Assembly: GCF_023517795.1 (NCBI RefSeq)
Contig: NZ_CP082928.1
Span: 3,968,001 to 4,032,000 of the forward strand
DNA length: 64,000 bases
Direction of reading: 5' to 3'
DNA from: Pseudomonas fulva
Lineage (GTDB): Bacteria; Pseudomonadota; Gammaproteobacteria; Pseudomonadales; Pseudomonadaceae
Under the pieces are notes generated by a model. It had not been told where the DNA came from. It was given only the letters and a program-made list of their open reading frames with translations, and did no database searches. Below are positions 17,505 through 47,010 of this stretch, piece by piece; positions within the stretch are counted from its first letter, which is position 1, and the number at the start of each line of letters is the position of its first letter. Both the position numbers and the translations under genes were made by a program.

Positions 17505-19082
17505 ATGGCCCTCGACATTCACGCTCACCGTATCCTGATCCTCGATTTCGGTTCCCAGTACACCCAGCTGATCGCCCGCCGCGTGCGCGAGATCGGCGTG
17601 TTCTGCGAACTGCATCCCTGGGACATGTCCGACGAGGACATCCGGGCCTTCGCCCCACGTGGCATCATCCTGGCCGGCGGCCCCGAGTCGGTTCACGAAG
17701 CCAACAGCCCGCGCGCGCGTCAGGCCGTATTCGACCTCGGCGTACCGCTGCTGGGCATCTGCTACGGCATGCAGACCATGGCCGAGCAACTGGGCGGCAA
17801 GGTCGAAGGTTCCGACCTGCGCGAATTCGGCTACGCCCGGGTCGACGTGGTCGGCAAGAGCAAGCTGCTCGACGGCATCGAAGACCATGTCGACGCCGAC
17901 GGCGTGCTGGGCCTGGACGTGTGGATGAGCCACGGCGACAAGGTCACCCAGCTGCCGGGCCAGTTCAACGTGCTGGCCAGCACCCCGAGCTGCCCGATCG
18001 CCGGCATGTTCGACGATGCCCGCGGCTACTACGGCGTGCAGTTCCACCCCGAAGTGACCCACACCAAGCAGGGTGGTCGCATCCTCACCCGCTTCGTGCA
18101 GGACATCTGCGGTTGCGAAGCGCTGTGGACGCCGTCCAACATCGTCGAAGACGCCATCGCCCAGGTGCGTGAGCAGGTCGGCGATGCCAACGTGCTGCTG
18201 GGCCTGTCCGGCGGCGTCGACAGCTCGGTGGTCGCCGCGCTGCTGCACAAAGCCATCGGCGACCAGCTGACCTGCGTGTTCGTCGACAACGGCCTGCTGC
18301 GCCTGCACGAAGGCGACCAGGTGATGGCCATGTTCAAAGAGAACATGGGCGTCAAGGTGATCCGCGCCGACGCCGAGAAGCAGTTCCTCGACAACCTGGC
18401 CGGCGAAGCCGACCCGGAGAAGAAGCGCAAGATCATCGGCCGCACCTTCATCGACGTGTTCGATGCCGAGGCCAGCAAGCTGCCGAACATCCAGTTCCTC
18501 GCCCAGGGCACCATCTACCCGGACGTGATCGAGTCGGCTGGCGCCAAGAGCGGCAAGGCCCACGTGATCAAGTCGCACCACAACGTCGGTGGCCTGCCTG
18601 AGGAAATGAACCTCAAGCTGGTCGAGCCATTGCGTGAACTGTTCAAGGACGAAGTGCGCAAGATTGGCCTGGAGTTGGGCCTGCCGTACGACATGGTCTA
18701 CCGCCACCCGTTCCCGGGCCCGGGCCTGGGCGTGCGCATCCTCGGTGAAGTGAAGAAGGAATACGCCGACATCCTGCGCCGCGCCGACCATATCTTCATC
18801 GAAGAACTGCGCAAGGCCGACTGGTACCACAAGACCAGCCAGGCCTTCGTGGTGTTCCAGCCGGTGCGTTCGGTGGGCGTGGTCGGTGACGGCCGTCGCT
18901 ACGCCTGGGTCGTCGCCCTGCGCGCCGTGGAAACCGTGGACTTCATGACCGCACGCTGGGCGCACCTGCCTTACGAGCTGCTGGAGACCGTGAGCGGCCG
19001 GATCATCAACGAAATCGACGGCATCTCCCGCGTCACCTACGACGTGTCGAGCAAGCCGCCAGCGACCATCGAGTGGGAGTGA
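17505..19082 (+). CDS. guaA: GMP synthase (glutamine-hydrolysing)
   Basis: A 525-residue enzyme that aminates XMP to GMP. The class I glutamine amidotransferase domain occupies about residues 8-205, with the nucleophile in GICYGMQ (Cys near 86) and the catalytic His/Glu in [10 protein letters not shown]. The ATP pyrophosphatase P-loop LSGGVDSSV follows near 233. The C-terminal dimerisation domain ends with the usual [10 protein letters not shown]. The last 12 bases of the gene plus one base form one copy of a direct repeat that recurs at 46998, marking this as an island integration site. Confidence 0.97.
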
Positions 19083-19083
19083 T
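19071..19083 (+). other. Left attachment site (attL) at the guaA 3' end
   Basis: GAGTGGGAGTGAT covers the last codons and stop of guaA and is repeated exactly at 46998-47010. The similarity extends to the right as nCCGnGTC (19 of 21 bases match). The 3' end of guaA is a known target of tyrosine-recombinase islands, and a truncated integrase start lies 300 bases further on. Confidence 0.78.
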
Positions 19084-19210
19084 ACCGAGTCCTTTTGGGC
19101 TTTTTGAGACGTATCGGTAGCAAGTGCTAACGTATTGATTTTTAAGTTAGTCCGTTGCTTTTGCTATCGGGCCCTATCGCCACTAAGCAACGCGGGTTGG
19201 CGGTAGCGGC

Positions 19211-19353
19211 GACGGTAATAAATGGACGGTTGGTTAAGACCGTTCCGTTTACTATCCAGTCAGAACCGGTCTGTGACGGTAATTCACTCCTCGGGAAAGC
19301 TTGCTTGGTGCGGCTTTCCCGGCATCAACAGGTCTCCTGACCCTTGACGGTAA
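19211..19353 (+). repeat. Direct repeats GACGGTAA upstream of the integrase remnant
   Basis: Three copies of GACGGTAA lie at 19211, 19275 and 19346, about 64 and 71 bases apart, with a related GGACGGT at 19224. Similar spaced short repeats serve as arm-type binding sites for tyrosine integrases. A further GACGGTA occurs at 46916-46922 near the right attachment site. The binding role is inferred. Confidence 0.45.
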
Positions 19354-19383
19354 ACGCCGTCATGAACAGGAGTAAAAACCTCG

Positions 19384-19449
19384 ATGCTTAGTGATACCAA
19401 ACTTCGCAAGCCCAAGTCCAAGCCATACGATATGGTTGTTAGTTGTTAG
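19384..19449 (+). pseudogene. Tyrosine integrase, N-terminal fragment
   Basis: ATG at 19384, behind a good AGGAG ribosome site, opens MLSDTKLRKPKSKPYDMVV and then hits TAG after 21 residues. The beginning matches the P4/ICE-type integrase N-terminus (M-L-T/S-D-T-K-L-R-x-x-K-P-x-x-K-P-Y). No arm-binding or catalytic domain follows, so the gene is truncated by a junction with unrelated low-GC sequence. It lies where an integrase of a guaA-inserted island is expected. Confidence 0.65.
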
Positions 19450-19482
19450 GCCATGGGGCCGCACAAGGGTGTGTGAATTGAT

Positions 19483-20155: not shown

Positions 20156-20163
20156 CGACCTGT

Positions 20164-20886
20164 TTAATGGTGATGTGCTTCTCCGACGAACGTCAGGGAT
20201 GTGAACAGGCTGCGCTCCGATACTTCATTCTCGCCGCTGGCCGGTACCCTGGCTTGGGCCGCGATAATGTTCAGTCCAGCGTTGCGGATGATGATGCTAG
20301 CGCGCCCCTTAGCATCGGTTTTGACGCTGCTTGCATCGAGCATTCCCCGGTAGTCGTCGAGAAGAGCGATATTCGCAGCTGGTTTGCCGTCGATGGTCAC
20401 CACGACCGGGAGAGCGTTACCAACTCCTACTTCTGCTGGATCTTTCAACGGACGAATGACCATCGCAATCCCCAATTGATCAGGGATATGGGCATGCGGT
20501 GCCAAAATCGCCAAGCTGTACTTGTAGCTGTGACTGGCATTCACCGCGCCTGGTACCTCTGCCATAGGCGCGTTCACGGATTTTCCGTCTTTATCTTTGC
20601 TCCACACCCCGTTGTCGAGCGTAACTGTCAGGACGGAGGGGGAGGTTAACGGCATTAGTCGAACATGATCACTTAGTCGCTGAACCGTAACAGGCACCAT
20701 TTTTCCGTTCTGATTGTATGCCCGCACGGCGCCAATTTTTTTCGGTTCATAAGCTTCATCCTCCGCGCCGTGTCCATATACAACCTCAAGCTGACCATAT
20801 CTCGTTTCCGTCCAGATGCCATGGGCCTGGGCTGAACCAATGGTAATTGCGCCTGCTAGTGCGGCCAGCGAAAGTGCAAGCTTCAT
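20164..20886 (-). CDS. Periplasmic DUF4198 (NikM-like) metal-binding protein
   Basis: A 240-residue secreted protein. The signal peptide ends in GSAQA, so the mature protein starts with HGIWTE, an N-terminal histidine suited to metal binding; the C-terminus ends in three histidines. The body matches DUF4198, a beta-rich family found with nickel, cobalt and zinc uptake systems. The ATG at 20886 follows AGGAAG. It is divergent from a TonB receptor (21057) across a Zur/Fur-like box, so the two probably form one metal-uptake unit. The metal is not known. Confidence 0.7.
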   Translation of the reverse strand: MKLALSLAALAGAITIGSAQAHGIWTETRYGQLEVVYGHGAEDEAYEPKKIGAVRAYNQNGKMVPVTVQRLSDHVRLMPLTSPSVLTVTLDNGVWSKDKDGKSVNAPMAEVPGAVNASHSYKYSLAILAPHAHIPDQLGIAMVIRPLKDPAEVGVGNALPVVVTIDGKPAANIALLDDYRGMLDASSVKTDAKGRASIIIRNAGLNIIAAQARVPASGENEVSERSLFTSLTFVGEAHHH

Positions 20887-20996
20887 ACGTTCTTCCTGAT
20901 GTAGTGACTGGAGTGAGCAAGGCTTGAGATTCGGGCGTCGGACTGGTCGATGAAAAGCCAAAACGACAAATCAACACCTTGATCGTTATCCTTTTT

Positions 20997-21014
20997 GATA
21001 TGATATAACGTATC
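20997..21014. promoter_or_regulatory. Zur- or Fur-like operator between DUF4198 and TonB genes
   Basis: GATATGATATAACGTATC is palindromic at 14 of 18 positions. Its reverse strand contains GTTATATCATATC, which matches the Zur core GTTATAnnATAAC at most positions. It also resembles a Fur box. It sits 42 bases before the receptor ATG. Confidence 0.5.
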
Positions 21015-21056: not shown

Positions 21057-23162
21057 ATGTACGGACGTGCGAATCGCGGCAGTGGTTGGGTTTTTAATGG
21101 AGCGGCATTGCTCTGCGTTGTCTCGTGCGCCTCGGTTGCTGCTGCAGATCGAGAGGATGAGGGTGTCACCGAGCTAGGTGCGATTGAAGTTGTAGGTGAG
21201 AGAGGTACACAGGGTAGAGCTACTCCGCTGACGCGCAGCAATGTGAGCAATGCCCCCGAGAGCCTTCCGACGGCGGTCACCACCATCACCGACGAGGAAC
21301 TCCGGACGCTCAACGTTGGCCGAGATATCTCCAACATCTACCGCCGGGTACCAGGTGTTGTTGCCAACAATATCGACCAAGGTGATACCGGCAATGGCTT
21401 TCGTATGCGCGGTTTCACCACAAACGGTACTCACGGTGCTGACGTGGCCGTGTACGTTGACGGCGTTCCGCAGAACATTCCGTCGAGTCAAGGTGGTGCC
21501 GGGCACGGCCCGGTTTTTCTGGAATGGCTGACGCCGCAGATGATCAAACGCGTCGACGTCATCAAAGGCCCTGTATCGGCGCTGCACGGCGACCAGAACC
21601 GTGCGGGCTCGGTGAACATCGAAACGCTTGATGGCGGCGATGTGGCCTCGAGCATAGGCTTGGACATCGCTAGCTTTGATGGGCGCCGAACCGATTTGGT
21701 GCTAGGCGGTGAGCATGAAGGACTCGAATCGTTGTTCGTGGCGGATATCTACAAGACCAACGGCTATCGCAAGGCAGCAGAGACCAGGCGCGACAACTAC
21801 TTCTGGAAGCTCTCTAAAGTGATCGGTGAGGCAAAATACTCAGCGCGCTTCAGCCATTACGAATCGGACTTCAAGAATGATGGCTACCTAAATTTGCCTG
21901 CATTGCGAGCCGGGACAATCAGTCGCCGCGATACTGACAACCTTTACGGGTTCGGTAACGCAAACCGAAATACCTATGTCTTCAATCGCGCACCGGCTGA
22001 AAGCGAGGAGGGTCTTTATTACACCGCGTACTTCGAGGACTTCAAGCGGGTACGCGGAATCTCAAACGGCACCAACACCCACAATTACGGCAAGGATGAT
22101 CGTGATATCTACGGTGGGCGGCTGGCCTATAACTTCGTGTACGAGGGCTCCGCGTCGCTTATGGTCGGCGCCGACGTGCGCCGTGACAAGGGCGACGCCT
22201 ATCGCCAGCAGTATCGCAACTTCGAGCCTACGCCCAATTTCTATTTTGACTTCGATCAGGATCTGATCACGTATGGGGTGTTCGCCCAGGGTCAATACAA
22301 ACCGGTCGAGTCATTGAAGTTGTTGGGGGGCATTCGCTACGATCGTTTTGATTATGACATCGATAATCTCAAGTTCCGCAACGCTGATACCGGCTACCAC
22401 AGTTCGGTCACCACACCGAAACTCGGACTGGTGTGGACGCCGACGGAGCAGTTCGAAGTGTTCACCAACGCTTCTCAGGGCTTTCGTTCGCCTGCCGCGG
22501 AATACATCAGCTCAGGCAGCAGCAGTGCTCTGCCACCAAGCGACACCGGCGGCCGAATCAATGGAAGCGTGCGGCCCAGCAAAGTCACCTCCTATGACAT
22601 CGGTTTCACGGCTCGCCCAACTGAACGACTCTCCAGCACTACCGAGTTCTACTATATCCAGAATGACAGCGAGACACTGCAAACCTCTCCTGGTGTCTTT
22701 GAGCAGGTTGCCGACACAACGCGTAAAGGTGTGGAGACCAGTTTCAACTACCAAGCCACATCCACAATCAGTACCTACGCGAGCTACGGACGGATCATCG
22801 ATGCGGTGATAGACAATCCGCCTGCCGGTACTGGCGACCGACTCGTAGTGCCTGAACATACCTATAAAGCCGGCATTCAATATCAGAATGCGTTCATGGC
22901 AGGGCAGTTGACGCTCAATGCCGACGCCTATCATCTCACTGGTGTCCCGTACTACGTCGGCACTGAAAGAAAAGAGATGCCGGTTTACACCCGATACGAC
23001 CTCCGGGCCTCCTATGACTACAGCGATTACCAATTCACTGTGTATGGCACCTTTCAGCCTCATCGTTACGGCACTGAAACGGCTTATGGCACCAACAGCG
23101 GACTGGTGATCGTTCCGCAACCTTCGACGACGCTTGGGGCATCGGTCAGATACTTCTTCTGA
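21057..23162 (+). CDS. TonB-dependent outer-membrane receptor (metal uptake)
   Basis: A 701-residue receptor. A signal peptide (about residues 1-30) is followed by the TonB box region ELGAIEVVGER, the plug domain (about 60-175, with GFRMRGFTTNG and VDVIKGPVSALHGDQNRAGSVNI) and a 22-strand barrel that ends in the usual aromatic YFF. There is no N-terminal signalling domain, so it does not feed an ECF sigma factor. The operator just upstream and the divergent DUF4198 partner suggest import of a metal or metallophore. Codon use is less GC-rich than in the guaA region. Confidence 0.83.
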   Translation: MYGRANRGSGWVFNGAALLCVVSCASVAAADREDEGVTELGAIEVVGERGTQGRATPLTRSNVSNAPESLPTAVTTITDEELRTLNVGRDISNIYRRVPGVVANNIDQGDTGNGFRMRGFTTNGTHGADVAVYVDGVPQNIPSSQGGAGHGPVFLEWLTPQMIKRVDVIKGPVSALHGDQNRAGSVNIETLDGGDVASSIGLDIASFDGRRTDLVLGGEHEGLESLFVADIYKTNGYRKAAETRRDNYFWKLSKVIGEAKYSARFSHYESDFKNDGYLNLPALRAGTISRRDTDNLYGFGNANRNTYVFNRAPAESEEGLYYTAYFEDFKRVRGISNGTNTHNYGKDDRDIYGGRLAYNFVYEGSASLMVGADVRRDKGDAYRQQYRNFEPTPNFYFDFDQDLITYGVFAQGQYKPVESLKLLGGIRYDRFDYDIDNLKFRNADTGYHSSVTTPKLGLVWTPTEQFEVFTNASQGFRSPAAEYISSGSSSALPPSDTGGRINGSVRPSKVTSYDIGFTARPTERLSSTTEFYYIQNDSETLQTSPGVFEQVADTTRKGVETSFNYQATSTISTYASYGRIIDAVIDNPPAGTGDRLVVPEHTYKAGIQYQNAFMAGQLTLNADAYHLTGVPYYVGTERKEMPVYTRYDLRASYDYSDYQFTVYGTFQPHRYGTETAYGTNSGLVIVPQPSTTLGASVRYFF

Positions 23163-23344: not shown

Positions 23345-24691
23345 TCAGTGGAAGAAACCGAGCAGAAGTGTGGCTAGGATGACGGTAGATGCGCCACCGA
23401 TGCGCGTGGAAATCTGTGCGAATGGCATCAATCCCATGCGGTTGGAGGCCGACAGGATCGCTACATCGCCGGTGCCCCCCAGGCCGCTGTGGCAGCAGGT
23501 CACGATGGCCGATTCGACAGGGAACATCTTCAAGAGATTGCCGATTAGGAAACCGGCAAGGGTCATCGACACCACTACCGAGGCACATACCACCACGTAG
23601 CCGACGGAAAACACCTCCACCACGCTATCCAGGGGCACATAGAGCATGCCCAGACCGATCATCACTGGCCAGATGAATGCAACGGACACCAGTTTGTAGA
23701 ACGATTTACTACCTTGTTCGAGGAGCGGCGGAATCACGCGCAGGTATTTGAACAGTACGGCGAGCAGAATCATCATCACCGGCCCCGGTATATGCACAAT
23801 CTTCTCAGCCAGCCCGCCCAGGATGAAGAAGGCGCAGATCAGCAGCACACCAGCTCCCATGTAACGGAAATCGATATGGTGGGTTGATTCCTCTTTCTCA
23901 CGGAACAGATCGTTTTCTTCCTTGGCACGAATCAGCATGCCGTCACCGTTCCATGCCGGCTTTTTGAGGGCGATACGTGCCAGCACTCCGGCACAGATGA
24001 TGGCGATGATGTTGCCCACGACTGCAGCGGGCACCAATTGCGCTACGTACTGATCAGGCGTGCCACCGAGGATGGCGGAGTAAGCCAGCGACAACGGCAG
24101 GATCCCTTCTCCGATGCCGCCACCAATGATCGGCACGATAATGAAAAAGAAGGTGTGATAGGCGCTGTAGCCGAACAGCATGCCGACTGCCATGCCCGCA
24201 GTCACCGCAGCTAGCGTACCAGCGACCAAAGGCACAAACATGCGGATCATGCCTTGCACGAGAATGAAGCGATCCATGCCCAGGATACTGCCCACGACCA
24301 GACTGGCGATGACGAAGTACAGGAAGTTGGCTTCCTTCATCAGCATCTTGGTCGCATCGATAGTAGTCGGCCCGAAAAAGCCGTAGAACACCAGTACCGA
24401 AGGCAGCAGCAGGCAGAGAATCGCACCACCACCGATTTCCTTCAGGATTGGCAGCCGTTGCCCGAGCTGACCGAAGAAAACCCCCATGGTCATGATCACG
24501 GCAAGGCCGCCAATCATGTTCTTGGGCAGTAGTCCAAAATGCGCAGAGAGGAAAACGGTCAACGCTATCGCGAGGAAATAAGGCAGTGGTATCACGCCTA
24601 TCTCGTAAGTAAGGAGAGTATGAAGTAGGCGGCGTTTAGGCGACGAAGCAGCGGCGTCCGACGCCGATCCCGAATTGGAGATCAGGCTCAT
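23345..24691 (-). CDS. 2-hydroxycarboxylate transporter (CitS/CimH/MleP family)
   Basis: A 448-residue inner-membrane carrier of the 2HCT family, with about eleven hydrophobic segments. The two re-entrant GGxG loops are visible: IIGGGIGEGILPLS about residue 190 and CHSGLGGTGDVAILSA about residue 400. Relatives carry citrate, malate, lactate or citramalate in symport with Na+ or H+, or as precursor/product exchangers. It is divergent from the DmlR-like regulator at 24804 and lies beside leuCD-like and RraA-like genes, so it should import the substrate they degrade. Confidence 0.87.
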   Translation of the reverse strand: MSLISNSGSASDAAASSPKRRLLHTLLTYEIGVIPLPYFLAIALTVFLSAHFGLLPKNMIGGLAVIMTMGVFFGQLGQRLPILKEIGGGAILCLLLPSVLVFYGFFGPTTIDATKMLMKEANFLYFVIASLVVGSILGMDRFILVQGMIRMFVPLVAGTLAAVTAGMAVGMLFGYSAYHTFFFIIVPIIGGGIGEGILPLSLAYSAILGGTPDQYVAQLVPAAVVGNIIAIICAGVLARIALKKPAWNGDGMLIRAKEENDLFREKEESTHHIDFRYMGAGVLLICAFFILGGLAEKIVHIPGPVMMILLAVLFKYLRVIPPLLEQGSKSFYKLVSVAFIWPVMIGLGMLYVPLDSVVEVFSVGYVVVCASVVVSMTLAGFLIGNLLKMFPVESAIVTCCHSGLGGTGDVAILSASNRMGLMPFAQISTRIGGASTVILATLLLGFFH

Positions 24692-24803
24692 GGCTAATCC
24701 TCTGTTTGTTCTTGTGAAGGAGGAATGGTCGGCGTCTGGACATCGAGTTCATCGCCGATGAAGAATGCTATCCTTCGCGTAAAGTGCAATAAACAGATCA
24801 ATC

Positions 24804-25733
24804 ATGACGCCTACAAACACGATTCGTGTCGAATCTCCCCTTCCAGATGATCTTTGTGTGTTTCTCACCGTGATCCGCAAATCCAGTTTCGCAGGAGCCG
24901 CCGACGAACTAGGTCTGTCACCGGCTTTCGTCAGCAAGCGAATTCGCATCCTTGAAGAAACTCTGCAAACCCGGTTGCTGCACCGCACTACACGCCGTAT
25001 TGCGCTAACCGAAGCTGGAGAGAAGACCCAGCGATGGGCAACCCGATTTCTCGATGACATGGATGATTTCGTCAGTGAGCTAACAGAAATCCGTCAGGCA
25101 CCTAGGGGCCTGTTGCACATCTGCAGCAGTTTCGGGTTCGGTCGCAATCATGTAGCACCTGCGATTGCAGAGCTGTCATCTACCTTCCCAGATCTGGAAG
25201 TCCGGCTGGATGTGTTCGACCGTGTCGTCGATATCGTCGCTGAGGGGTTCGATTTGGAAATCCGTGTTGGTGATGATTTGCCTGGTCATCACATCGGCCG
25301 CAAGCTGGTAAGCAACCAGCGGATCCTTTGCGCGACTCCAGAATATCTGGAGAGACGAGGCAAGCCATTGAGCCTGAAGGATCTTGCCCAGCATGATTGT
25401 TTGGTGCTCAAGGAGCGCAACAACCCTTTCGGGGTCTGGCAGCTGAACCATGCAGATGGTGATGAAACGGTACGTGTCAGCAGCCGATTGTCTTCTAACA
25501 ACGGTGAAATAGTGCTGCAGTGGGCGCTGGGCGGCAGAGGCATCATCCTGCGCTCGCTCTGGGACGTCCAACCATTGCTCGATCAGGGCAAGCTGGTGCG
25601 CGTGCTACCGGCCTACACCCAAAGCGCTAACGTCTGGGCGGTGTATCCGACCCGATTATCGGACTCAGCTAAGCTTCGCGTTTGCGTGGAGTTCCTCGAA
25701 AACCGATTTAGGAAAATGGTGCTCACGGGCTGA
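24804..25733 (+). CDS. LysR-family regulator, DmlR-like
   Basis: A 309-residue LysR regulator with the helix-turn-helix at residues 27-55 (SSFAGAADELGLSPAFVSKRI) and an effector domain from about 105. The RTTRRIALTEAGE stretch and the overall pattern are those of the DmlR/CrgA subgroup, which often senses hydroxy-dicarboxylates such as D-malate. It is divergent from the 2HCT carrier and converges with the RraA-like gene, with the two stops adjacent at 25733/25734. It probably controls both flanking transcription units. Confidence 0.8.
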   Translation: MTPTNTIRVESPLPDDLCVFLTVIRKSSFAGAADELGLSPAFVSKRIRILEETLQTRLLHRTTRRIALTEAGEKTQRWATRFLDDMDDFVSELTEIRQAPRGLLHICSSFGFGRNHVAPAIAELSSTFPDLEVRLDVFDRVVDIVAEGFDLEIRVGDDLPGHHIGRKLVSNQRILCATPEYLERRGKPLSLKDLAQHDCLVLKERNNPFGVWQLNHADGDETVRVSSRLSSNNGEIVLQWALGGRGIILRSLWDVQPLLDQGKLVRVLPAYTQSANVWAVYPTRLSDSAKLRVCVEFLENRFRKMVLTG

Positions 25734-26429
25734 TCAGAGCGGGCAACCCTTGCTGCGCAGCAAGTCGTCGAATCGGGTAGGGTCCAGCGTGCCTGCCGAG
25801 ATGGCCGAGATGATGCTGCGTTCGCGGTCAAGCAACTGCTGGCACCGCTCGTGCAAAGCCGGTAACTCGGCCTGGGGCACAGCGACCACGCCATCTAGAT
25901 CACCGAGTACCATATCGCCGGGGCTAACCACGAGGCCCGCGCAGGAGATCGGCACATTGATTTCGCCGTTGCCATCGGTGCTCGGCCCTCTGTGAACGCT
26001 CCCCAACGCGAAAATGGGGAGCTGGCCCTCCAGGCACTCGTCTTGGTCGCGAATTGCGCCGTTTACCACCACGCCGGCTATTCCAGCCTTAAGCGCCATG
26101 GCGCGCATGATGCCGCCGAACACCGCGCGGGTCATGTCTCCGCTTCCGTCTATAACCAGAACGTCGCCTGGCCGAGCCATTTGAATGGCCTTGAGCGTCA
26201 GCAGGTTGTCGCCGGGACGCACGCGTACGGTCAGTGCGCTCCCGCACAAATGCTTGGCACCATGAAAAGGTTTTAGACCGAGCCCACCCACGTTGCGCCC
26301 CAGACAATCGCTGACGATGGCGCTGGGCATGTCGTGAAATGCAGCCAACCAGTCGGAGGGAACTGCAGATACTGGTGGATTGATCAGGTAGCCGGGTGGC
26401 CAGGAGCTGTTTGAAGTTACGTCAAGCAT
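25734..26429 (-). CDS. RraA-like protein, HMG/CHA-type aldolase or oxaloacetate decarboxylase
   Basis: A 231-residue member of the RraA/HMG-aldolase superfamily. The phosphate/carboxylate loop PGDNLLTLKAIQMARPGDVLVIDGSG (about residues 71-96) and the metal-ligand region NGAIRDQDEC (about 123-132) with the GAIRD signature are intact, which favours a catalytic metal-dependent pyruvate aldolase over an RNase E inhibitor. It would split a 4-hydroxy-2-oxo-dicarboxylate to pyruvate plus another acid, or decarboxylate oxaloacetate. It lies 51 bases after leuD-like and is last in the leuC-leuD-rraA unit. Confidence 0.78.
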   Translation of the reverse strand: MLDVTSNSSWPPGYLINPPVSAVPSDWLAAFHDMPSAIVSDCLGRNVGGLGLKPFHGAKHLCGSALTVRVRPGDNLLTLKAIQMARPGDVLVIDGSGDMTRAVFGGIMRAMALKAGIAGVVVNGAIRDQDECLEGQLPIFALGSVHRGPSTDGNGEINVPISCAGLVVSPGDMVLGDLDGVVAVPQAELPALHERCQQLLDRERSIISAISAGTLDPTRFDDLLRSKGCPL

Positions 26430-26480
26430 AACGGTTCCAATACGGGTCTCTTATGCAGAGACCCGCTGCTGAATCATAGT

Positions 26481-27089: not shown

Positions 27090-27090
27090 G

Positions 27091-30842: not shown

Positions 30843-30913
30843 GGGGGTCTCCTTGCAGCGCCGCTGGTGGGCGCTGCCGAGCATGCCGGGGCAATGTCTC
30901 AGAACGATGACGG

Positions 30914-32668: not shown

Positions 32669-32686
32669 CTGTCACGCAAGTGCCAT
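32669..32686 (+). promoter_or_regulatory. Predicted Pho box upstream of phytate operon
   Basis: CTGTCAC-GCAA-GTGCCAT matches the PhoB consensus CTGTCAT-n4-CTGTCAT at 11 of 14 half-site positions with the correct 11-base period. It lies 65 bases before the GTG of the TonB receptor. It predicts induction of the receptor, phytase and transport-energy genes by phosphate starvation. Confidence 0.6.
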
Positions 32687-32751
32687 AAAGGATTTCTAGC
32701 TTTCGCTGCCATTGCCTGGTGTCGCCAGGGTCATCGAACGAGGGAATCAAG

Positions 32752-35226: not shown

Positions 35227-35306
35227 CGGCGCGACCCACCCATACGCCTCGCGGGCCATGCCCGCGAATGGCCTGTCACTTTTAGATATCAGGACATCCT
35301 TCTTTC

Positions 35307-37220: not shown

Positions 37221-37309
37221 GACGAACGGCGTTGCGCCTGTCATCAGTGCGCAACGTGCTGGTCTTCCAATGTGAGCCCTCGGGCTCGAGCAATTGAAGG
37301 AAATCCGTG

Positions 37310-38026: not shown

Positions 38027-38039
38027 GGAGGAGAGCACG

Positions 38040-38483
38040 ATGCTGGTTCGACCGAAGCACAAGCACGGCCTAAAGGCCGAGATGAACGTGGTGCCCTACA
38101 TCGACGTGATGCTGGTGCTGCTGGTGATCTTCATGGTCACTGCGCCGATGCTGGTCCAGGGCGTACAGATCGAGTTGCCCAAGGTGGCCGCCGAGGCGCT
38201 GCCGACGCCGGGGGAGCAGCGCATCGTCACCCTGTCGGTCAAGGAGGACGGCAGCTTCTACTGGAATCTGGGCAGCGAGGTGAACGTCGAGGCGCAGACC
38301 GACAGCGCGGTGGACAAGAACGAAATGCGCGAGAAGATCGCCGCCCTGGTCGCCGCCAGCCCGGACACCCAGGTGTATGTGCGTGCCGACCAGAACGCCG
38401 ACTATGCGTCAGTGGTGACCGGCATCGCCGAACTGCAGCGTGGCGGCGTGAGCCGCCTGGGCCTGATCACCGAGGCGCCCTGA
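38040..38483 (+). CDS. exbD: ExbD/TolR-type protein
   Basis: A 147-residue protein with one N-terminal membrane helix containing the essential proton-channel aspartate in NVVPYIDVMLVLLVIFMV, and a periplasmic domain. It lies 13 bases after exbB, with GAGGAGAG as ribosome site, and one base before the tonB-like gene. It should form the channel complex with ExbB and energise TonB. Confidence 0.88.
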   Translation: MLVRPKHKHGLKAEMNVVPYIDVMLVLLVIFMVTAPMLVQGVQIELPKVAAEALPTPGEQRIVTLSVKEDGSFYWNLGSEVNVEAQTDSAVDKNEMREKIAALVAASPDTQVYVRADQNADYASVVTGIAELQRGGVSRLGLITEAP

Positions 38484-38484
38484 G

Positions 38485-39306
38485 ATGAACGGTCTGACCC
38501 TGGAAATGCCCGCATCCCGTTTCGTCTGGCCAGCCTGGCGTGAACACGGTTTTGCCTTCGGGGTGGCGTTGGCCCTGCATGCCGGCCTGGCCTACGTACT
38601 GCTTAACCTGTCCCACGAAGCGCCGATGCCAACACCGGTTTCCGCGGTGCTCACCACCCAGTTGATCACCTTGCCGGCGCCCGTCGTAGCACCGCCTGCC
38701 CCGGTGCTTGCTGAATCACTGGCACCTGCTCCTGCGCATGTCCCGGAACCTGAACCGGTGGCCCGTGCGCCGGTTGTCGAGCAGGCCGATCTCGCTTTCA
38801 AGCGGGTGGAGCAGGAGCGCCAGGAAAAAGCCCGCCAAGTGCAGCGCGAGCGCCAGCAACGTGAGCAAGCACTACGCGAGGAACGACTGGCCCGTGAGCA
38901 GCAACAACAGGCACTGAAGGAACAGCAACTGGCCCAGGCCCGCCAGGCCGAGGCCGAGCGCCTTGCTGCAGCCGAACGTCAGGCAGTGGCGAATGCTGCA
39001 GCCGCAGCAGCGGCGCGTGCCGAGGCCGAAGCTGCCAGCCGACAGTACCTGCCCATCGCCAAGCAGGCGCCGGATTACCCCGCGCGCGCCCTGGAGCGCA
39101 AGATCGAGGGCGAATGCACCGTCGCCTACACGGTTACTGCCGCTGGCCGGGTGGAAGACCCCCAGGTGGTGGGCAATTGTCACCCCATGTTCGTCAAGCC
39201 CTCGCTGGCTGCTGCCAAGACTTTTCGGTACCAGCCTCGGATGGTCAACGGCCAGGCGGTGGCCGTTGCCAATGTGAAGAACACCTTCAGCTACCGGATT
39301 CAGTGA
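38485..39306 (+). CDS. tonB: TonB-type energy transducer
   Basis: A 273-residue protein. There is one N-terminal membrane anchor (about residues 24-42). A Pro/Ala-rich stretch (48-95) and a long Gln/Glu/Arg/Ala-rich helix (100-185) cross the periplasm. The C-terminal TonB domain (about 190-273) contains DYPARALERKIEGECTVAYTVTAAG with a paired cysteine later, and ends FSYRIQ. The helical linker is TolA-like, but the end is TonB. It completes the receptor-phytase-exbBD-tonB operon. Confidence 0.85.
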   Translation: MNGLTLEMPASRFVWPAWREHGFAFGVALALHAGLAYVLLNLSHEAPMPTPVSAVLTTQLITLPAPVVAPPAPVLAESLAPAPAHVPEPEPVARAPVVEQADLAFKRVEQERQEKARQVQRERQQREQALREERLAREQQQQALKEQQLAQARQAEAERLAAAERQAVANAAAAAAARAEAEAASRQYLPIAKQAPDYPARALERKIEGECTVAYTVTAAGRVEDPQVVGNCHPMFVKPSLAAAKTFRYQPRMVNGQAVAVANVKNTFSYRIQ

Positions 39307-39476: not shown

Positions 39477-40040
39477 ATGCTTGCATGGCAATGGATTGGG
39501 GTGGCGTTCGTTGCGTTGTCGGTTGGCTATACGGTCTGGTGCTACAACCGGCTGGTGTTCAACCGCCTGCGCGTTGCCGAGGCGTGGAGCGGCATCGACG
39601 TACAGCTCAAGCGGCGATCGAGTCTTGTACCTGATCTGGTACTGGTCTTGCGCGCTTACATGGCTCACGAGCGGGGGGCGCTCGAATCACTCACCGAGAA
39701 GCGCAGCCTGGTTCAGCGCGACGAGCATGCGGGGGCTTTGCAGCGAGGTCTTTCGGAAGCCGGACTGAGCAATGCCCTCACGCAGGTTTTTGTCACCGCC
39801 GAGGCTTACCCGCAACTGAAGGCTGATAGCAACTTCCTCGCGCTTCAGCACACGCTCGCTGATCTGGAAAACCAGATCCAGATGTCGCGGCGTTACTACA
39901 ACGGTGCGGTTCGAGAGCTCAACGTCATGGTGCAATCGATTCCGAGCAATCTCGTTGCCAGGCTCTTCCAGTTTCGCACCGCCGAGTACTTTGCCCTGGC
40001 CGATGCACGCGAGGGGCAGAGCCCCAAACTGGGGTTGTGA
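39477..40040 (+). CDS. LemA family membrane protein
   Basis: A 187-residue protein with one N-terminal membrane helix and a LemA four-helix body. The NRLVFNRLRVAEAWSGIDVQLKRRSSLVPDLV segment and the later QMSRRYYNGAVRELN are family hallmarks. The ribosome site is AGGGAG before ATG 39477. The stop lies one base before the DUF2207 gene, a pairing repeated in many bacteria. Its role is unknown, probably in envelope stress or surface-related secretion. Confidence 0.85.
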   Translation: MLAWQWIGVAFVALSVGYTVWCYNRLVFNRLRVAEAWSGIDVQLKRRSSLVPDLVLVLRAYMAHERGALESLTEKRSLVQRDEHAGALQRGLSEAGLSNALTQVFVTAEAYPQLKADSNFLALQHTLADLENQIQMSRRYYNGAVRELNVMVQSIPSNLVARLFQFRTAEYFALADAREGQSPKLGL

Positions 40041-40041
40041 G

Positions 40042-41994
40042 ATGAGGATCTGGATTGAATCCACCCTCTGGATGGTGTTGTTGTGCGCCTCGATCGACGC
40101 GCTGGCGGCAGAGCACGAACGTATTCGCGACTATGGGGTAACCGTCCGGGTCTATGAAGACGGTCAGCTGCAGGTCACTGAAGACATCAGGGTCGAAGCT
40201 GCTGGCGATCAGATCAGCCGCGGTATCTTCCGGAATTTTCCGGTGCAAACGATCAGTCGTGAAGGTTTGCTAAAACGCGTTGGCTTCGAAGTGCTGAGCG
40301 TTCAGCGCAACGGCAAGTCGGAACCCTACCAGGTGATTACGTTGGGCGCAGTTGAGCGCATACGTATCGGGGCAGCCGCTCGCGAGCTTGAGCCTGGTCA
40401 GCATAGCTACCGAATCGTCTACCGCACCGACCGACAGCTCATCGAGCATGCTGATGAAGATGAGCTCTACTGGAACGTCACGGGGAACGACTGGGCGTTT
40501 CCGATCGACAAGGTGCGGATCACCGTGCTGTTGCCCGATGCGGTGAAGGTGACTCGCTTTGATGCCTACACTGGCCCAGCCGGTGGCCGAGGCAAGGCAT
40601 TCGAAGTGGCTGGGCAGGATGCTGGTCGCATCGAGTTGGAGACCAGCGAAGCACTCAAGGCCCGCGAGGGTTTTACCATCGCCGTAGCATGGCCGGCAGG
40701 ATCCATCGAGCGCCCCAGCTTCGGTCAGCGCCTGCGCTGGGTAGGCGAGGACAACCCGGGTGTTGCGATAGGTCTCGGTATCCTGGTGTTGCTGCTGACG
40801 TATTTTCTCTGGCAATGGGTGAGGGTTGGGCGCGATCCGCGCGGAGGCCTGATCATTCCTCTGTTCGAACCTCCCCAGGGAGTGACCGTTGCGGCTGCGG
40901 GCTTCATCTGGAATATGGGATTCAGGGCACGCTACAGCCCCGCCAATGCGCTGACCGTCACGCTGACTTCAATGGCGATAAAGCGCGCGCTTAGTCTGCG
41001 CGATACTCCCGGCGGGTTCACGCTGGTAGCGGGACGAAAACCATTGCCAGCCTTGCCGCCAGATGAGGGGCAGGTTCACAAGGCTTTATTCAGTGAATCG
41101 AACAGCCTCGCCCTAGAGGGCGGGTACAAACCACAACTGAAAAAGGCTCTCGACACCCTGCAGTCCGGTCTGCGTGATCGCTACCAAGCCGCCTGTTTTT
41201 GCCTGAATCGCTCACAGTGGCGGCGAGGGTTGATCCTGGCAATGCTTGGAACGCCGCTAACGCTGTTGCCCGGCTTGAACGGCGCTGACGCCCTGACGGT
41301 CTGCCTGCTTGGACTGTTCGTGCTCGTCTTCGGTGGGGTTGGCATCATTGGTCTTCGCCTCAGCTTGCGCGGTTGGAGGACGAGCCAGCCAGTCGTCATC
41401 GTCGTCGGGCTGGTGCTTTCACTGTTATTCGGAGGGGTGGCCATCGTCGCGCTGACAATGATGGCCAGTAGCATCTCGACCCTATCGATATGGAGTGTCG
41501 TGCTGGTGCTGGCCTTTGCATCGACTTGCGCGCTGTTTCGCCTGCTACTGGAGGCACCAACCCGGCATGGCCGCAAGCTGCTCGATCAGCTTGCGGGCTA
41601 TCGGGATTACCTGGCGCTGGGCGAGAGCGAAATACTGGAAAGGGCGGGTAGTGCTCCAGCCATGACCATCGCGCTGTACGAGCAGCATCTGCCATATGCC
41701 ATGGCCCTGGGCGTTGAAAGACAGTGGAGCCGGCGGTTCTCGGCAGCCCTGGAGAAGGGATCCGATGCATCATCTGAAACAACCTATCGCCCGCAGTGGT
41801 ACGTCGGCGAAAACATGCTGAGCCCTCAAGCCTTCAGCAGCAATCTGGCGACGAACCTGGGGCGCGCGACGGCCAGCGCTTCGGTCGCCCCTTCGACATC
41901 TTCCTCCTCCTCGTTCGGGCGCTCGTCAGGGGGCGCTAGCGGTAGCGGTTCGTCCGGCGGCGGTGGGGGAGGCGGCGGTGGCGGTGGATGGTAA
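40042..41994 (+). CDS. DUF2207 membrane protein with Gly-rich tail
   Basis: A 650-residue protein. A signal peptide (1-22) precedes the extracytoplasmic DUF2207 beta domain (25-240), with ISRGIFRNFP and LYWNVTGNDW as landmarks. One membrane helix (about 250-268), a cytoplasmic region with two or more helices at 420-515, and a soluble tail follow. The last 60 residues are Ser- and Gly-rich and end in a run of eleven glycines and Trp. It is coupled to the LemA gene. The function is not known. Confidence 0.8.
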   Translation: MRIWIESTLWMVLLCASIDALAAEHERIRDYGVTVRVYEDGQLQVTEDIRVEAAGDQISRGIFRNFPVQTISREGLLKRVGFEVLSVQRNGKSEPYQVITLGAVERIRIGAAARELEPGQHSYRIVYRTDRQLIEHADEDELYWNVTGNDWAFPIDKVRITVLLPDAVKVTRFDAYTGPAGGRGKAFEVAGQDAGRIELETSEALKAREGFTIAVAWPAGSIERPSFGQRLRWVGEDNPGVAIGLGILVLLLTYFLWQWVRVGRDPRGGLIIPLFEPPQGVTVAAAGFIWNMGFRARYSPANALTVTLTSMAIKRALSLRDTPGGFTLVAGRKPLPALPPDEGQVHKALFSESNSLALEGGYKPQLKKALDTLQSGLRDRYQAACFCLNRSQWRRGLILAMLGTPLTLLPGLNGADALTVCLLGLFVLVFGGVGIIGLRLSLRGWRTSQPVVIVVGLVLSLLFGGVAIVALTMMASSISTLSIWSVVLVLAFASTCALFRLLLEAPTRHGRKLLDQLAGYRDYLALGESEILERAGSAPAMTIALYEQHLPYAMALGVERQWSRRFSAALEKGSDASSETTYRPQWYVGENMLSPQAFSSNLATNLGRATASASVAPSTSSSSSFGRSSGGASGSGSSGGGGGGGGGGGW

Positions 41995-42621: not shown

Positions 42622-43137
42622 ATGTCCGATGAGCAGCAAGCCCGCAGTCTGTCGCTGCTCTATCAACGTCATCGCAACGAATTGCTGGCCTTTCTAACCC
42701 GCAAGGTGCGCTGCCGCGAAACTGCCAGGGACCTGCTTCAGGACACCTTTGTCCGTCTGTTGCACGCCGAGCATGGCGAAGTGGGGAATCTGCGCGCGTT
42801 TCTTTACCGCATTGCTACCAACCTGAGTATCGATCACGCCCGACGTACGCAAGTGCGTGGGATAAATGACGAGCAGGCGCTGGACGAGTTGCTGACCGAG
42901 GCGACACCGGAACGCAGTGCCGTGGCGGGTAGCACGCTGGCGTATCTGGAGCGGTTGATTGATGGCCTGCCATCGCCCACGCGAGAAGTGTTTCTGCTGG
43001 CCCGGGTTGATCAGATGGGCTACAAGGAAATCGCCGCACGGCTTGGCATTACCGAGCGCGCTGTCGAGCGGCATCTGAATAAAGCCCTCAGTCACTGCGC
43101 GGCGGCGGCGCTGTATGCACGTAGCAAGACCGATTAG
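42622..43137 (+). CDS. ECF sigma factor, FecI/PvdS-like iron-starvation type
   Basis: A 171-residue sigma factor with region 2 (about 10-80, DLLQDTFVRLL) and region 4 (about 110-160, REVFLLARVDQMGYKEIAARLGITERAVERHL). It is followed after two bases by a FecR-like gene and then by a receptor with a signalling domain, the classical cell-surface signalling trio. It should transcribe the receptor gene when the receptor has bound its siderophore. Confidence 0.88.
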   Translation: MSDEQQARSLSLLYQRHRNELLAFLTRKVRCRETARDLLQDTFVRLLHAEHGEVGNLRAFLYRIATNLSIDHARRTQVRGINDEQALDELLTEATPERSAVAGSTLAYLERLIDGLPSPTREVFLLARVDQMGYKEIAARLGITERAVERHLNKALSHCAAAALYARSKTD

Positions 43138-43139
43138 CC

Positions 43140-44060
43140 ATGACTAATTCTTCCGAGAACCCCCTTTCCCAGCAGCAGGCTCTGGACTGGTTTACCCGCT
43201 TGCGCGACGAAAAGGTTGATAGCGTCGAGCGTGAGGCATTCGAAAGCTGGATCCAACTGCCGCAAAATGCCCAGGCTTACGCCGAAGTGGAGCACTTGTG
43301 GCGAACTCTGGAACTACCTGCGCACAGGGTACGCAAGACGGAGCGCTCGCGCGGACGAGCATGGCCTCGCCTAGCGGCTGTCGCCTGTCTGATGTTGGCT
43401 GCTGGTGTGGCATGGATTTCAGCGCCGATTTTGCAAGGCCTGGGCAGCGATTACGTTACGGCGGCAGGCGAGCGCCGGGAAGTGGTACTCGGCGACGGCT
43501 CTCGCCTGTGGCTGGACAGCGACAGTGCGGTGGATGTGGATCTACAAGGGGCGATGCGTACGGTGTGGCTGCACCACGGGCGCGTATTCGCCGATGTGGT
43601 ACACGACGGCCGGCCGTTCGTGGTCCAGGTCGATCAGGCGAAGGTCGAAGTTTTGGGCACGCGCTTTTCGGTCAGTCGGGGGGCGACGGGCGATGAAGTG
43701 GTATTGCTCAGTGGCCAAGTGCGGGTCAGTACATCCCTACAACAGCAATTGCTCACCCCTGGGCAGCGGTTAATGGTGCTGGATCAGCAGGTTCGAGCTC
43801 CTCAAACTGTGGATGCCGAGCGCTTGCTGGCCTGGCGCTCCGGCCAGCTGGTGGTACGCGAAGCCCCCCTGCAGGACGTGCTGAGGCAACTGGCCGATTA
43901 CCAGGGCAAGCGCTTGGTGTTGCTCAATGAAACGGCTGGCCGGCAGCCGGTGAGCGGCAGCTTCAACCTGGATCGCGCTGACAGTGCCTTTGATGCGCTG
44001 GTCAGCAGTCGCCAGTTGCAAGCGCACACGCTGCTGGGGCAGTGGTTGATCATTCACTAA
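43140..44060 (+). CDS. FecR-like anti-sigma/regulator
   Basis: A 306-residue inner-membrane regulator. The cytoplasmic N-terminal DUF4880 part (QALDWFTRLRD, FESWIQLPQNAQAYAEVEHLW) binds the sigma factor. A single helix lies at about 80-100, and the periplasmic FecR domain (110-205, with GERREVVLGDGSRLWLDSDS) and a STN-contact C-terminal domain follow. It transmits the receptor signal to the adjacent ECF sigma factor. Confidence 0.87.
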   Translation: MTNSSENPLSQQQALDWFTRLRDEKVDSVEREAFESWIQLPQNAQAYAEVEHLWRTLELPAHRVRKTERSRGRAWPRLAAVACLMLAAGVAWISAPILQGLGSDYVTAAGERREVVLGDGSRLWLDSDSAVDVDLQGAMRTVWLHHGRVFADVVHDGRPFVVQVDQAKVEVLGTRFSVSRGATGDEVVLLSGQVRVSTSLQQQLLTPGQRLMVLDQQVRAPQTVDAERLLAWRSGQLVVREAPLQDVLRQLADYQGKRLVLLNETAGRQPVSGSFNLDRADSAFDALVSSRQLQAHTLLGQWLIIH

Positions 44061-44114
44061 ATTTTCTCTGACGCTCGGGGGGAATTTCGTTTCTGCTGCG
44101 TCTCACTTCCACAC

Positions 44115-44137
44115 ATAAGAAATATTTTCATTCTTAT
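44115..44137. promoter_or_regulatory. AT-rich inverted repeat before the receptor gene
   Basis: ATAAGAA (44115-44121) and TTCTTAT (44131-44137) form perfect 7-base arms around a 9-base AT-rich centre, 17 bases before the receptor ATG. It may be an operator for the ECF-dependent promoter region, or a weak hairpin at the ribosome site. Confidence 0.35.
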
Positions 44138-44153
44138 TTTCTGGGGAGTACAC

Positions 44154-46577
44154 ATGCAGCACCAACGCAACTGCATTTCCAAGCGCCGTCCGATCGCCAG
44201 CGCCGTACTGATCGTGGGTTTGCTTTCAACAATGCCTTCATTAACGGTGAGGGCGGCAGAGGCTAGCCCTGAGGTAGCCGAGCAGGTTCGACAGGATTTT
44301 GATATTCCGGCTCAGCCATTGCCTGACGCGCTAGATGCCTTCAGTGCGCAAAGTGGCTACCAAGTTATCTACAACGCCAACGAAGTCAGCGGCCAATCCT
44401 CTGTGACGGTTCAAGGGACGTACAGCGCTGATGAGGCTATCCGCGGGTTGCTCAGCGCAAGTGCTGCGCAGTTGAGCCGGCCCAATGCCAGCAGCTTCGT
44501 CATCATACTTCCAGTCACTGCAGGCACTAGTCTGCAGCTAGACGCCTTGAGCATTTCTGGCAAAGCGCCGGGCTCGACCACCGAGGGTACCGGGCTTTAC
44601 ACCACCTATTCTTCAAGCAGTTCCACTCGTCTAAACCTGTCGCTGAAGGAAACCCCACAAGCGTTGACGGTAATGACCCGCCAGCGTCTGGATGATCAGA
44701 AGCTCACCACGCTCAATGAGGTGCTGGAGCAGACCCCTGGCATCACCGCCTCGCACACCAGCATCAGCGCTGAGAACAACACCTATTGGTCGCGCGGCTT
44801 CCAGATCAACAACTTCGAGATCGATGGTGTTCCGACCTCCTCGCGGATCGACAACTCCACCCATTACACCGCCATGTACGATCGGGTCGAAATCGTGCGC
44901 GGCGCCACCGGGCTGATCAGCGGCACCGGTACGCCCTCGGCGACCATCAACCTGATTCGCAAACGGCCCACGTTCGAGCCGCAGGCCAGTGTCAGTGCCG
45001 AAGCTGGCAGCTGGGATCGCTATGGCCTGGGGGTCGATGTATCGGGGCCGTTGACTGAAACAGGCAATGTGCGCGGGCGCCTGGTGTTGGACTACAAGGA
45101 TCAGAAGTACTGGGTCGACCGGATGTCCTCCGATGCCGCGCTGGTGTATGGCATTACCGAGTTCGACCTGACCGAGTCGACCTTGCTCACCCTCGGTTTC
45201 AGCTACGCCAACACGCATACCAACGCACCGCTACGAGCGGGCTTTCCCGCGTATTTCAGCAACGGCCAGAAGACCGACTTCTCGCGCTCTACCAACAGCT
45301 CTCCCGACTGGGCCTACTACGACCGTAAAGTGACCAACCTGTTTGGCTCCATCGAGCACACTTTCGACAGTGGTTGGAGCGCCAAGGCCGAACTGAGCCA
45401 TACGCAAAACTCCTTCGATCAGCTTACCAGTTACCTCAACGGCAGCATCGACCAGCAGACCGGCGAGGGGGCCTACCTATACCCCAACCGCTGGACTGGA
45501 ACCCCGCGCCAGGACACCCTCGATGCATACGTCACCGGCCCGTTCAGCCTGTTTGGCCGCGAGCATGAATTGATCGTTGGCACCACGCTCTCGCGTTACC
45601 GCGAGCACACTCCGGAGCGTGGCGGCTGGTACGGGCCATGGACCGGCTATGACGGGACCATCGACAACTTCTTCACCTGGGATGGTAGCGGGCCACGGCC
45701 TGACACCACGCCAGTAGGCAAAAGCCTGATCGACGAAAACCAGTACGCAGCTTTCCTGACCTCGCGCTTTCACGTTACCGACAACACCCACCTGATCCTT
45801 GGCAGCCGGGTAACCGACTGGAAGCGTGAGAACGAGTCCATTAGTTACAGCGGCGATAACCGCAAGGACAGCCAGAACCGGCACGGGATCTTCTTACCCT
45901 ATGCAGGCTTGGTCTACGACTTGAACGACACTTGGTCGCTCTACGGAAGCTACACCAAGATCTTCAATCCACAGCAGTACGGCATGAAAGACACCAATAA
46001 CAAGGCGCTCGACCCGCAAGAAGGCGTGGGCTACGAGTTGGGGGTGAAGGGCAGCTTCAACGACGACAAGCTCAACGCCAGCCTGGCGGTGTTTAAGATC
46101 GAGCAGGACAACCTGGCGGTGTACCTGCGAGACCCGGATATCTACACCCTCGAACAGGGCACCACCACTGAGGGTGTCGAACTTTCGTTGGATGGTGAGC
46201 TGGCGCAAGGCTGGCAGGCAATGGCCGGCTACGCCTATAGCGTCAGCACCGATCAGGATGAGCGACGCATCGTGACGAACATTCCGCGTCACAGTATCAA
46301 GACCTTCACCAGCTACCGCCTACCAGGCGCGCTGAGCAATATAACCGTAGGTGGCGGGGCGAACTGGCAGAGCAAATATGGGCAGGATTTACGCACCTTC
46401 ACTCAGGGCAGTTTCGCAGTGGTCAACCTGATGACCCGCTACGACGTGACTCGCGACTTGAGCGTGAAACTGAACCTCAACAACGTGCTCGACAAAAAAT
46501 ACTACGGCTATGCCGACAGCTGGGTGGTATATGGCGAGCCGCGAAACTTCATGACCAGCATGGAGTATCGGTTCTGA
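44154..46577 (+). CDS. FecA/FpvA-type TonB-dependent siderophore receptor with signalling domain
   Basis: An 807-residue outer-membrane receptor. A signal peptide (about 1-35) is followed by a secretin/TonB N-terminal signalling domain (50-120: FDIPAQPLPDALDAFSAQSG, TYSADEAIRGLLSAS), the TonB box region (LQLDALSISG), a plug (TVMTRQRLDDQ, EIVRGATGLISGTGTPSATINLIRK) and a barrel ending in SMEYRF. The signalling domain makes it the sensor for the ECF/FecR pair directly upstream. The barrel pattern is of the ferric hydroxamate/pyoverdine class; the exact siderophore is not visible. Confidence 0.88.
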   Translation: MQHQRNCISKRRPIASAVLIVGLLSTMPSLTVRAAEASPEVAEQVRQDFDIPAQPLPDALDAFSAQSGYQVIYNANEVSGQSSVTVQGTYSADEAIRGLLSASAAQLSRPNASSFVIILPVTAGTSLQLDALSISGKAPGSTTEGTGLYTTYSSSSSTRLNLSLKETPQALTVMTRQRLDDQKLTTLNEVLEQTPGITASHTSISAENNTYWSRGFQINNFEIDGVPTSSRIDNSTHYTAMYDRVEIVRGATGLISGTGTPSATINLIRKRPTFEPQASVSAEAGSWDRYGLGVDVSGPLTETGNVRGRLVLDYKDQKYWVDRMSSDAALVYGITEFDLTESTLLTLGFSYANTHTNAPLRAGFPAYFSNGQKTDFSRSTNSSPDWAYYDRKVTNLFGSIEHTFDSGWSAKAELSHTQNSFDQLTSYLNGSIDQQTGEGAYLYPNRWTGTPRQDTLDAYVTGPFSLFGREHELIVGTTLSRYREHTPERGGWYGPWTGYDGTIDNFFTWDGSGPRPDTTPVGKSLIDENQYAAFLTSRFHVTDNTHLILGSRVTDWKRENESISYSGDNRKDSQNRHGIFLPYAGLVYDLNDTWSLYGSYTKIFNPQQYGMKDTNNKALDPQEGVGYELGVKGSFNDDKLNASLAVFKIEQDNLAVYLRDPDIYTLEQGTTTEGVELSLDGELAQGWQAMAGYAYSVSTDQDERRIVTNIPRHSIKTFTSYRLPGALSNITVGGGANWQSKYGQDLRTFTQGSFAVVNLMTRYDVTRDLSVKLNLNNVLDKKYYGYADSWVVYGEPRNFMTSMEYRF

Positions 46578-46997
46578 ATCTAAGATAAATGTCGGGCTTG
46601 CTGTGAACCTTAAAGCCGGTACGAGTCTGTTGGGGTAGCTTCTCCCTACGCCACTGAACTCAACCTAGGCGCTGGGCATGGAGCAGTTACGACATCCCTG
46701 CACCGCCATGGTCGCAAGCAAGCTCACCCCCACCAGGCAAGTACTCATGCGTGGGGGGAGGATGTCGAATGGACTAACAGTGAGCTGATCTGCTGAACTT
46801 TCGATGGCACCACCTGCCAATTGCTTGTGCCCTAATTCGACTAATCAGTTCATATTGCCCACCGCGGCGACCGAGAAAGCTATCGCGTGGGTATGAGGCG
46901 TAGCCTTATGCGAATGACGGTAGATAAGTCGGTATGACCGCTTCTATCGATTACCAAACCCTTTAATCATGCGGGCTCAGACGATGTGTTGATGATT
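46578..46997. other. Gene-poor right end of the proposed island
   Basis: About 420 bases without a supported gene. It contains a short stretch GGTCGCAAGCAAGCTC (46711-46726) resembling common pseudomonad extragenic repeats, and a GACGGTA (46916-46922) matching the direct repeats near the integrase fragment. It leads into the right attachment site. Confidence 0.4.
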
Positions 46998-47010
46998 GAG
47001 TGGGAGTGAT
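46998..47010 (+). other. Right attachment site (attR), repeat of the guaA end
   Basis: GAGTGGGAGTGAT is identical to the end of guaA at 19071-19083, and flanking bases continue to match as nCCGnGTC. It is followed by a strong terminator at 47054, as would be expected for the original downstream flank of guaA. Confidence 0.75.

Follow-up and report, generated by a model that had tools for sequence, protein, structure and literature searches.

A decayed genomic island at the 3' end of guaA in Pseudomonas fulva, most likely the youngest in a series of tandem inserts

Genomic islands that carry a P4-type integrase and are inserted at guaA (GI-guaA) have been described (Song 2012), and several individual elements are on record at this gene. 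ICE6775 is reported with a 12-bp duplication, GAGTGGGAGTGA, at guaA of P. fluorescens SBW25 (PMC7419628), GIsul2 is reported to excise from guaA via sites sharing GAGTGGGA (PMC9376610), and ICERspD18B is described as having moved into guaA of E. coli (PMC7775301). A 76-kb guaA locus is reported for Pseudomonas sp. M1 (PMC10386936) and a guaA-flanked defence island for Stenotrophomonas maltophilia (PMC11680222), while the CIME is defined, and tandem accretion described, in PMC5704250.

Here, we analysed a window of 64,000 nucleotides from Pseudomonas fulva (contig NZ_CP082928.1, positions 3,968,001 to 4,032,000), for which a preliminary description had proposed a 28-kb island bounded by repeats of the guaA 3' end. 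The sequence itself also points to Pseudomonas, by a guaA match of 87% to a named record of that genus (L170) and by its gene order around purL. The block is a real decayed island, correctly bounded in that description, and in all likelihood the youngest of several inserts that lie in tandem at an established hotspot. Both the site and the kind of element are already known, including the 12-bp repeat, and the block is a further case; that guaA ends serve as island targets, as the preliminary description stated, is in print for ICE6775 and GIsul2 (PMC7419628, PMC9376610). The locus is a familiar entry site of mobile elements that here carries genes for phosphate, carboxylate and iron uptake. 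Comparison with other genomes gives its borders and the likely order of stacked inserts, and it offers a testable case of whether a visiting element can move integrase-less guaA islets. Among the papers listed from the open-licence literature, we found none on phytase cargo at guaA and none on integrase-less guaA islets.

As far as the published accounts describe them, the GI-guaA islands and ICEs have the same target as the block, the guaA 3' end, and ICE6775 and ICERspD18B have the same GAGTGGGA core (PMC7419628, PMC7775301). The complete GI-guaA relatives keep an integrase next to guaA, whereas that of the block is cut to its start; the block further differs from the GI-guaA ICEs in its nutrient-uptake cargo and in that no conjugation family was found in the ORFs scanned. 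GIsul2 resembles the present region in its guaA 3'-end position, its core and the grouping of more than two att sites, but is described with a working integrase, shown excision and other cargo (PMC9376610). The CIME of PMC5704250 has in common with the block the retention of attL and attR, the loss of the integrase and the stacking at the same target; its mobilization in cis is a prediction for the block, where the loss of transfer genes was judged on 21 ORFs. The S. maltophilia island holds variable defence genes beside guaA, as the second unit of our array may, but belongs to another genus (PMC11680222).

The features of the block are given below with their strand where one was assigned. Protein assignments are from Pfam/NCBIfam, and genomes used for comparison are referred to by G numbers.

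17505-19082, plus strand: guaA (GMP synthase), the target gene, an ORF of 525 aa
19071-19083, plus strand: attL core GAGTGGGAGTGAT, the guaA 3' end
19084-19422, plus strand: type-I island left end
19211-19353, plus strand: three GACGGTAA boxes (19211, 19275 and 19346), probable arm-type integrase sites
19384-19449, plus strand: integrase-start remnant, a 21-codon frame with about the first 13-16 codons homologous to open integrases
20164-20961, minus strand: DUF4198 protein
21057-23162, plus strand: TonB-dependent receptor
23345-28512: module of 2-hydroxycarboxylate transporter, LysR regulator, RraA-like aldolase, and LeuD-like and LeuC-like dehydratase subunits
28894-39306: module of AraC regulator, GGDEF protein, purple acid phosphatase, TonB receptor, phytase and ExbB/ExbD/TonB
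39904-41994, plus strand: DUF2207 membrane protein
42622-46577, plus strand: module of ECF sigma factor, FecR and TonB-dependent siderophore receptor
46916-46997, plus strand: type-I island right end
46998-47010, plus strand: attR core GAGTGGGAGTGAT, an exact second copy
47011-47085, plus strand: guaA-type terminator behind attR

The attL core spans the last codons of guaA, the stop codon and one further base, and the 3' end of guaA was matched in 55 of 57 genomes, our own included. The exact recurrence at 46998-47010 that the preliminary description had noted was borne out, and the 5.44-Mb genome holds only these two copies, one at the guaA stop codon and one at the right border. The match does extend into the flanks, over 18 of 20 bases rather than the 19 of 21 first given. 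Direct repeats containing GAGTGGGA are present at both ends of an insertion at the guaA 3' end, and attL and attR are both retained, as judged by the exact cores and by end homology. The GC content is 0.599 within the island vs 0.658 upstream and is uneven inside it (0.554, 0.648 and 0.587). A candidate internal att at 39301, with two mismatches, was rejected: it begins with the closing letters of tonB, which are conserved in G008 (ATTCAGTGA), and it lacks an island-end sequence in front.

Directly behind the left core, 19086-19422 is 84-85% identical to the sequence that follows guaA in G159, G223 and G263 (from 19089 in G263). The same left end was observed in G403 (87.6%) and G354 (81.7%), both figures including the guaA end. 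Across the genus, 19084-19480 was matched in seven of 298 genomes including our own, the match in G167 being one of 28 bp only. In G159, G223 and G263 the left end continues into an open integrase of 418 aa, as it does in G403 and G354, and the G223 copy shows the Pfam integrase together with its arm-binding and central domains. In the block, DNA homology to these type-I islands ends at 19423 and protein homology by 19431, within the integrase start. The truncated integrase start reported earlier is real. A P4-type integrase gene is not present beside guaA, only these 13-16 or so codons; because of this truncation the block was filed as a decayed derivative and not as a functional member of the guaA islands. 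Since its integration genes are lost, the island has no enzyme of its own with which to excise. A PF00589 search of the P. fulva genome returned 11 integrase-domain matches (two in one frame), none of them in the window and no close family member among them; with only about 31% identity to the guaA integrases at the best of these loci, a source of integrase in trans within the genome was rejected.

The GACGGTAA repeats claimed just inside the left copy are indeed present. In G159, G223 and G263 the three positions are again occupied by GACGGTA, with GACGGTAG at the first of them; a role as arm-type integrase sites is probable. GACGGTA also lies ahead of the right copy, at 46916-46922, as had been described. 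It occurs 13 times in the window vs 3.7 expected, a count reached by none of 100 shuffles, and nine of the 13 copies are elsewhere than in these four places.

At the right end, a GACGGTA box followed by CCCTTTAATCA..GCGGGCTC..GTTGATGAT is common to the block and to G403, G159, G223, G263 and G354, the right-end types being assigned by eye. GACGGTA-like boxes are found upstream of the right end in all six genomes; in G354 the first one is GACGGCA, and the second box of the block reads GTCGGTA. Identity to the complete islands over about 138 bp is 50-63% (67/134 to 86/137). The last 45 bp before the attR core agree with the five genomes at 27-34 of 45 positions, a level unmatched among the other 63955 positions of the window. 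In all five genomes (5/5) the type-I integrase lies next to guaA with an open frame of 418 aa, and their complete guaA islands, of 25.5-94 kb, match the block at both ends. When the pattern GTTGATGATYGAGTGGGARTGA was searched with up to two mismatches, it was detected in 22 of 398 genomes, our own included, and the reversed-pattern control in none. In 20 of the 22 this right end shares strand and contig with guaA and follows it 1.1-94 kb downstream; G369 and G190, with guaA and att on separate draft contigs, were omitted from the distance count and their right ends left unclassed. G006 shows the core pattern without a mismatch, yet has another upstream type.

The guaA-type terminator noted beyond the right copy is real, a similar one being found directly after guaA in five of 57 genomes (G024, G010, G003, G001 and G026). 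As lone proof of an empty site such a terminator was rejected, because at least one integrase-bearing island, that of G010 with its own integrase, has a similar terminator at its left end.

Comparison with relatives supported the proposed borders and an insertion into the 3' end of guaA, since both ends match complete guaA islands and G185 marks the right border. In G185, 46987-53583 of the window recurs at 90.2% identity behind a different insert of 5.1 kb, and it is the onset of this homology at the repeat that marks the border. Relatives in which guaA is not followed by the block were seen in part: in G012, G027 and G014, three of 19 relatives fetched, homology to the gene at about 61400 sets in at most about 135-185 bp behind guaA, and in G263 homology to that gene begins 198 bp past the start of the right att of its 75.8-kb island. 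A junction of guaA to the sequence after about 47085 was not found in the genomes examined, nor was an exact strain-level empty site; the genomes searched were one per species, and for this reason no strain lacking only the 28-kb block was seen. G403 has a 25.5-kb island with integrase, then an att and a terminator, and 53795-66151 (window coordinates) starts 173 bp behind the right att of this island at 94.6% identity. Because homology resumes only at 53795, the G403 part has no DNA match to 19084-53794 except for the island ends. The island extent given earlier holds for the borders 19084-47010, while the variable stretch goes on to about 53640.

By sequence, the cargo is a mosaic whose modules occur singly elsewhere in the genus. 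The cargo search evaluated at most two candidate stretches in each genome, and among the matches listed, from 249 genomes including our own, single modules were covered, the longest single match outside our own genome being 5.2 kb (G210). The module at 23345-28512 has one contiguous match in G210, on a contig other than that of guaA. The module at 28894-39306 is also found as a block in G008, G177 and G155, at sites other than guaA, where the matches listed sum to the 28.9-39.3-kb module, and that at 42622-46577 is contiguous in G247. In the seven genomes checked among those with strong cargo matches (G008, G177, G238, G155, G210, G247 and G097), these matches are on other contigs, which is not decisive where the assembly is a draft, or more than 1 Mb from guaA; cargo in place without the repeat, which would have spoken against an island, was absent from them. 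The protein families predict a cargo for the uptake and processing of organic phosphate, a hydroxycarboxylate and siderophore-bound iron, the nearest models of the siderophore receptor being FhuE and FauA, both under cut-offs. The nutrient cargo described earlier is in place, with phytase, LeuCD/hydroxycarboxylate and siderophore genes inside the island, but as a mosaic and in an element that has lost its integrase.

Frames of at least 50 aa from the type-I islands matched the block at both ends and in a few cargo genes, namely a LeuCD-like pair in G159 (54% and 41% at the amino acid level) and a LysR-like frame in G223 (25%). No further block match was obtained from these frames at E 1e-5 and no other backbone gene was recognised, with the G354 island compared by its two ends (31 of 86 kb). 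For alpA, a gene expected near the integrase of P4-type guaA islands, the evidence covers this frame comparison, which matched nothing in the block past the ends and cargo genes named. The own conjugation machinery of an ICE was not found: the 21 island ORFs scanned with Pfam, long ORFs included, contained no conjugation or transfer families. As only the integrase start and no other recognised backbone is left, the block can be described as an integrase-less, CIME-like remnant with both att cores.

We are highly confident that the block is a guaA island whose P4-type integrase was later deleted, that a CIME-like element remains, and that it is most likely the newest of three stacked inserts. 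A P4-type tyrosine integrase would have inserted 19084-47010 by acting on the GAGTGGGA core in the guaA 3' end, so that one core copy stayed at guaA and another marks the right border, as the junctions and published relatives suggest. A later deletion, whose effect is visible by comparison and whose timing and mechanism are proposed here, would have removed the integrase beyond its first 13-16 codons along with any backbone. What is left, a putative CIME, would consist of cargo flanked by intact attL and attR cores, each with GACGGTA boxes close by, and it would be expected to move again only after another element had brought in a guaA-specific integrase.

It is possible, and we hold it as a tentative alternative, that the ends are those of an old type-I island into which most of the cargo was swapped later by homologous recombination, so that it never moved as a unit. 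The mosaic GC, the separate occurrence of the modules elsewhere in the genus and the lack of a recognised backbone protein would agree with such a course, but the complete type-I islands differ in cargo too, having in common with the block its ends and the LeuCD-like and LysR-like genes of G159 and G223. The uneven GC and the modules lying apart elsewhere do suggest that the cargo may have arrived stepwise, some of it perhaps after the loss of the integrase.

Returning to the reading of a guaA island that lost its integrase, the sequence behind its right border contains further units.

47445-51098, plus strand: second unit, a YobI-like P-loop NTPase of 1217 aa, Tmn-like in part (PF20693, E 2.9e-116)
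51225-51321, plus strand: decayed att (CGAATGTAAATGACC) and second guaA-type terminator, 51240-51321 being 88% identical to the post-guaA stretch of G003
51467-53413, minus strand: third unit, a GGDEF-EAL protein, common to G001 and G185
53650-53704, plus strand: degenerate terminator-like stretch, identified by eye against G185 and G403

Terminators of the guaA type occur at 47053, 51288 and about 53650 (the last degenerate and by eye), and each rear unit (47011 to about 51240, and about 51241 to about 53640) is preceded by one. The decayed second att has the same letters, CGAATGTAAATGACC, in G185. A core-like sequence at 53582 is weak, with two mismatches, and coincides with the end of the G185 homology and lies near that of G001 (53572). 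The YobI-like and GGDEF-EAL units look like older inserts at the guaA hotspot, and the 28-kb block was most likely the last of the three to arrive there, with the newest next to guaA; the rear units would be older than the front block, and the second junction has a decayed att. We take 47011-53640 to be a probable gain in this genome, a loss from G403 being the less likely course; parts of it occur in G185 and G001.

That 19084-53640 entered as one composite element instead of three successive inserts appears improbable. Tandem units can move jointly according to PMC5704250, but the rear stretch 46987-53583 lies behind a different front insert in G185, the third unit is present in G001 without matches to the first two, the YobI-like protein among them, and decay has affected the second att but not the first. 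The remaining explanation, a chance 13-bp repeat in 28 kb of ordinary variable chromosome, can be dismissed almost entirely: the core with two mismatches is no commoner than chance in the window (2 vs a mean of 1.56) and parts of the cargo have a wide distribution in the genus, but the exact match is expected 0.0015 times per window and 0.13 times per genome (first-order Markov, window composition), both core flanks match the ends of complete guaA islands, which contradicts it, and the G185 homology begins at the repeat. The earlier expectation of about 0.002 copies per window was a fair one; given that the two-mismatch count is not above chance, the exact match and its context carry the weight.

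In the stacked array, the YobI-like NTPase is possibly a defence gene. PADLOC assigned it to Tmn at 3e-50, with the best stretch covering residues 13-283 only, and Tmn is described as a KAP-family NTPase (PMC11846954). Its relatives were found in 48 loci of other genomes, with guaA within the fetched flanks in two and absent in 46; it adjoins guaA in Salinicola acroporae and in Pseudomonas sp. EpS/L25. Relatives at 68-71% identity were observed in Pseudomonas, Salinicola and actinobacteria such as Micrococcus terreus, and this span suggests wide transfer.

A TonB receptor at 53912-56107, just past the array, has a 72% match behind the right att of G223 and is also matched in G185, while no match was seen in the plain loci of G012, G027 and G014; it is possibly a still older insert.

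Among 20 att-bounded guaA inserts, a PF00589 match was absent in ten (G265, G308, G254, G018, G157, G062, G185, G006, G085 and our own); the integrases of G403 and G131 were detected by the same search, and the other eight have an integrase by tblastn. The insert of G085 retains the first part of an integrase. We consider it conceivable but doubtful that the guaA 3' end is, beyond collecting mere ICE wrecks, a stacking platform for integrase-less att-bounded islets that visiting integrases would move in trans. The ten integrase-less inserts, two inserts of only 1.1-1.3 kb and the YobI-like gene at guaA of Salinicola are in favour of this, and the contents of such islets would comprise nutrient uptake (our own), the YobI-like NTPase (our own and G185), Gabija (G018) and Olokun (G062). 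Pfam revealed no defence families in the four small-insert proteins of G185 and G254 that were submitted.

Three of the other inserts were seen in closer view. In G085 (L164 800-3760), a shortened integrase beside guaA is followed by ORFs that look transposase-like by eye, which makes it another decayed guaA element. The 7-kb integrase-less insert of G018 holds the Gabija genes GajA and GajB (L223 759-4617), and the 6.5-kb integrase-less insert of G062 holds OloA and OloB of the Olokun type (L166 714-4177).
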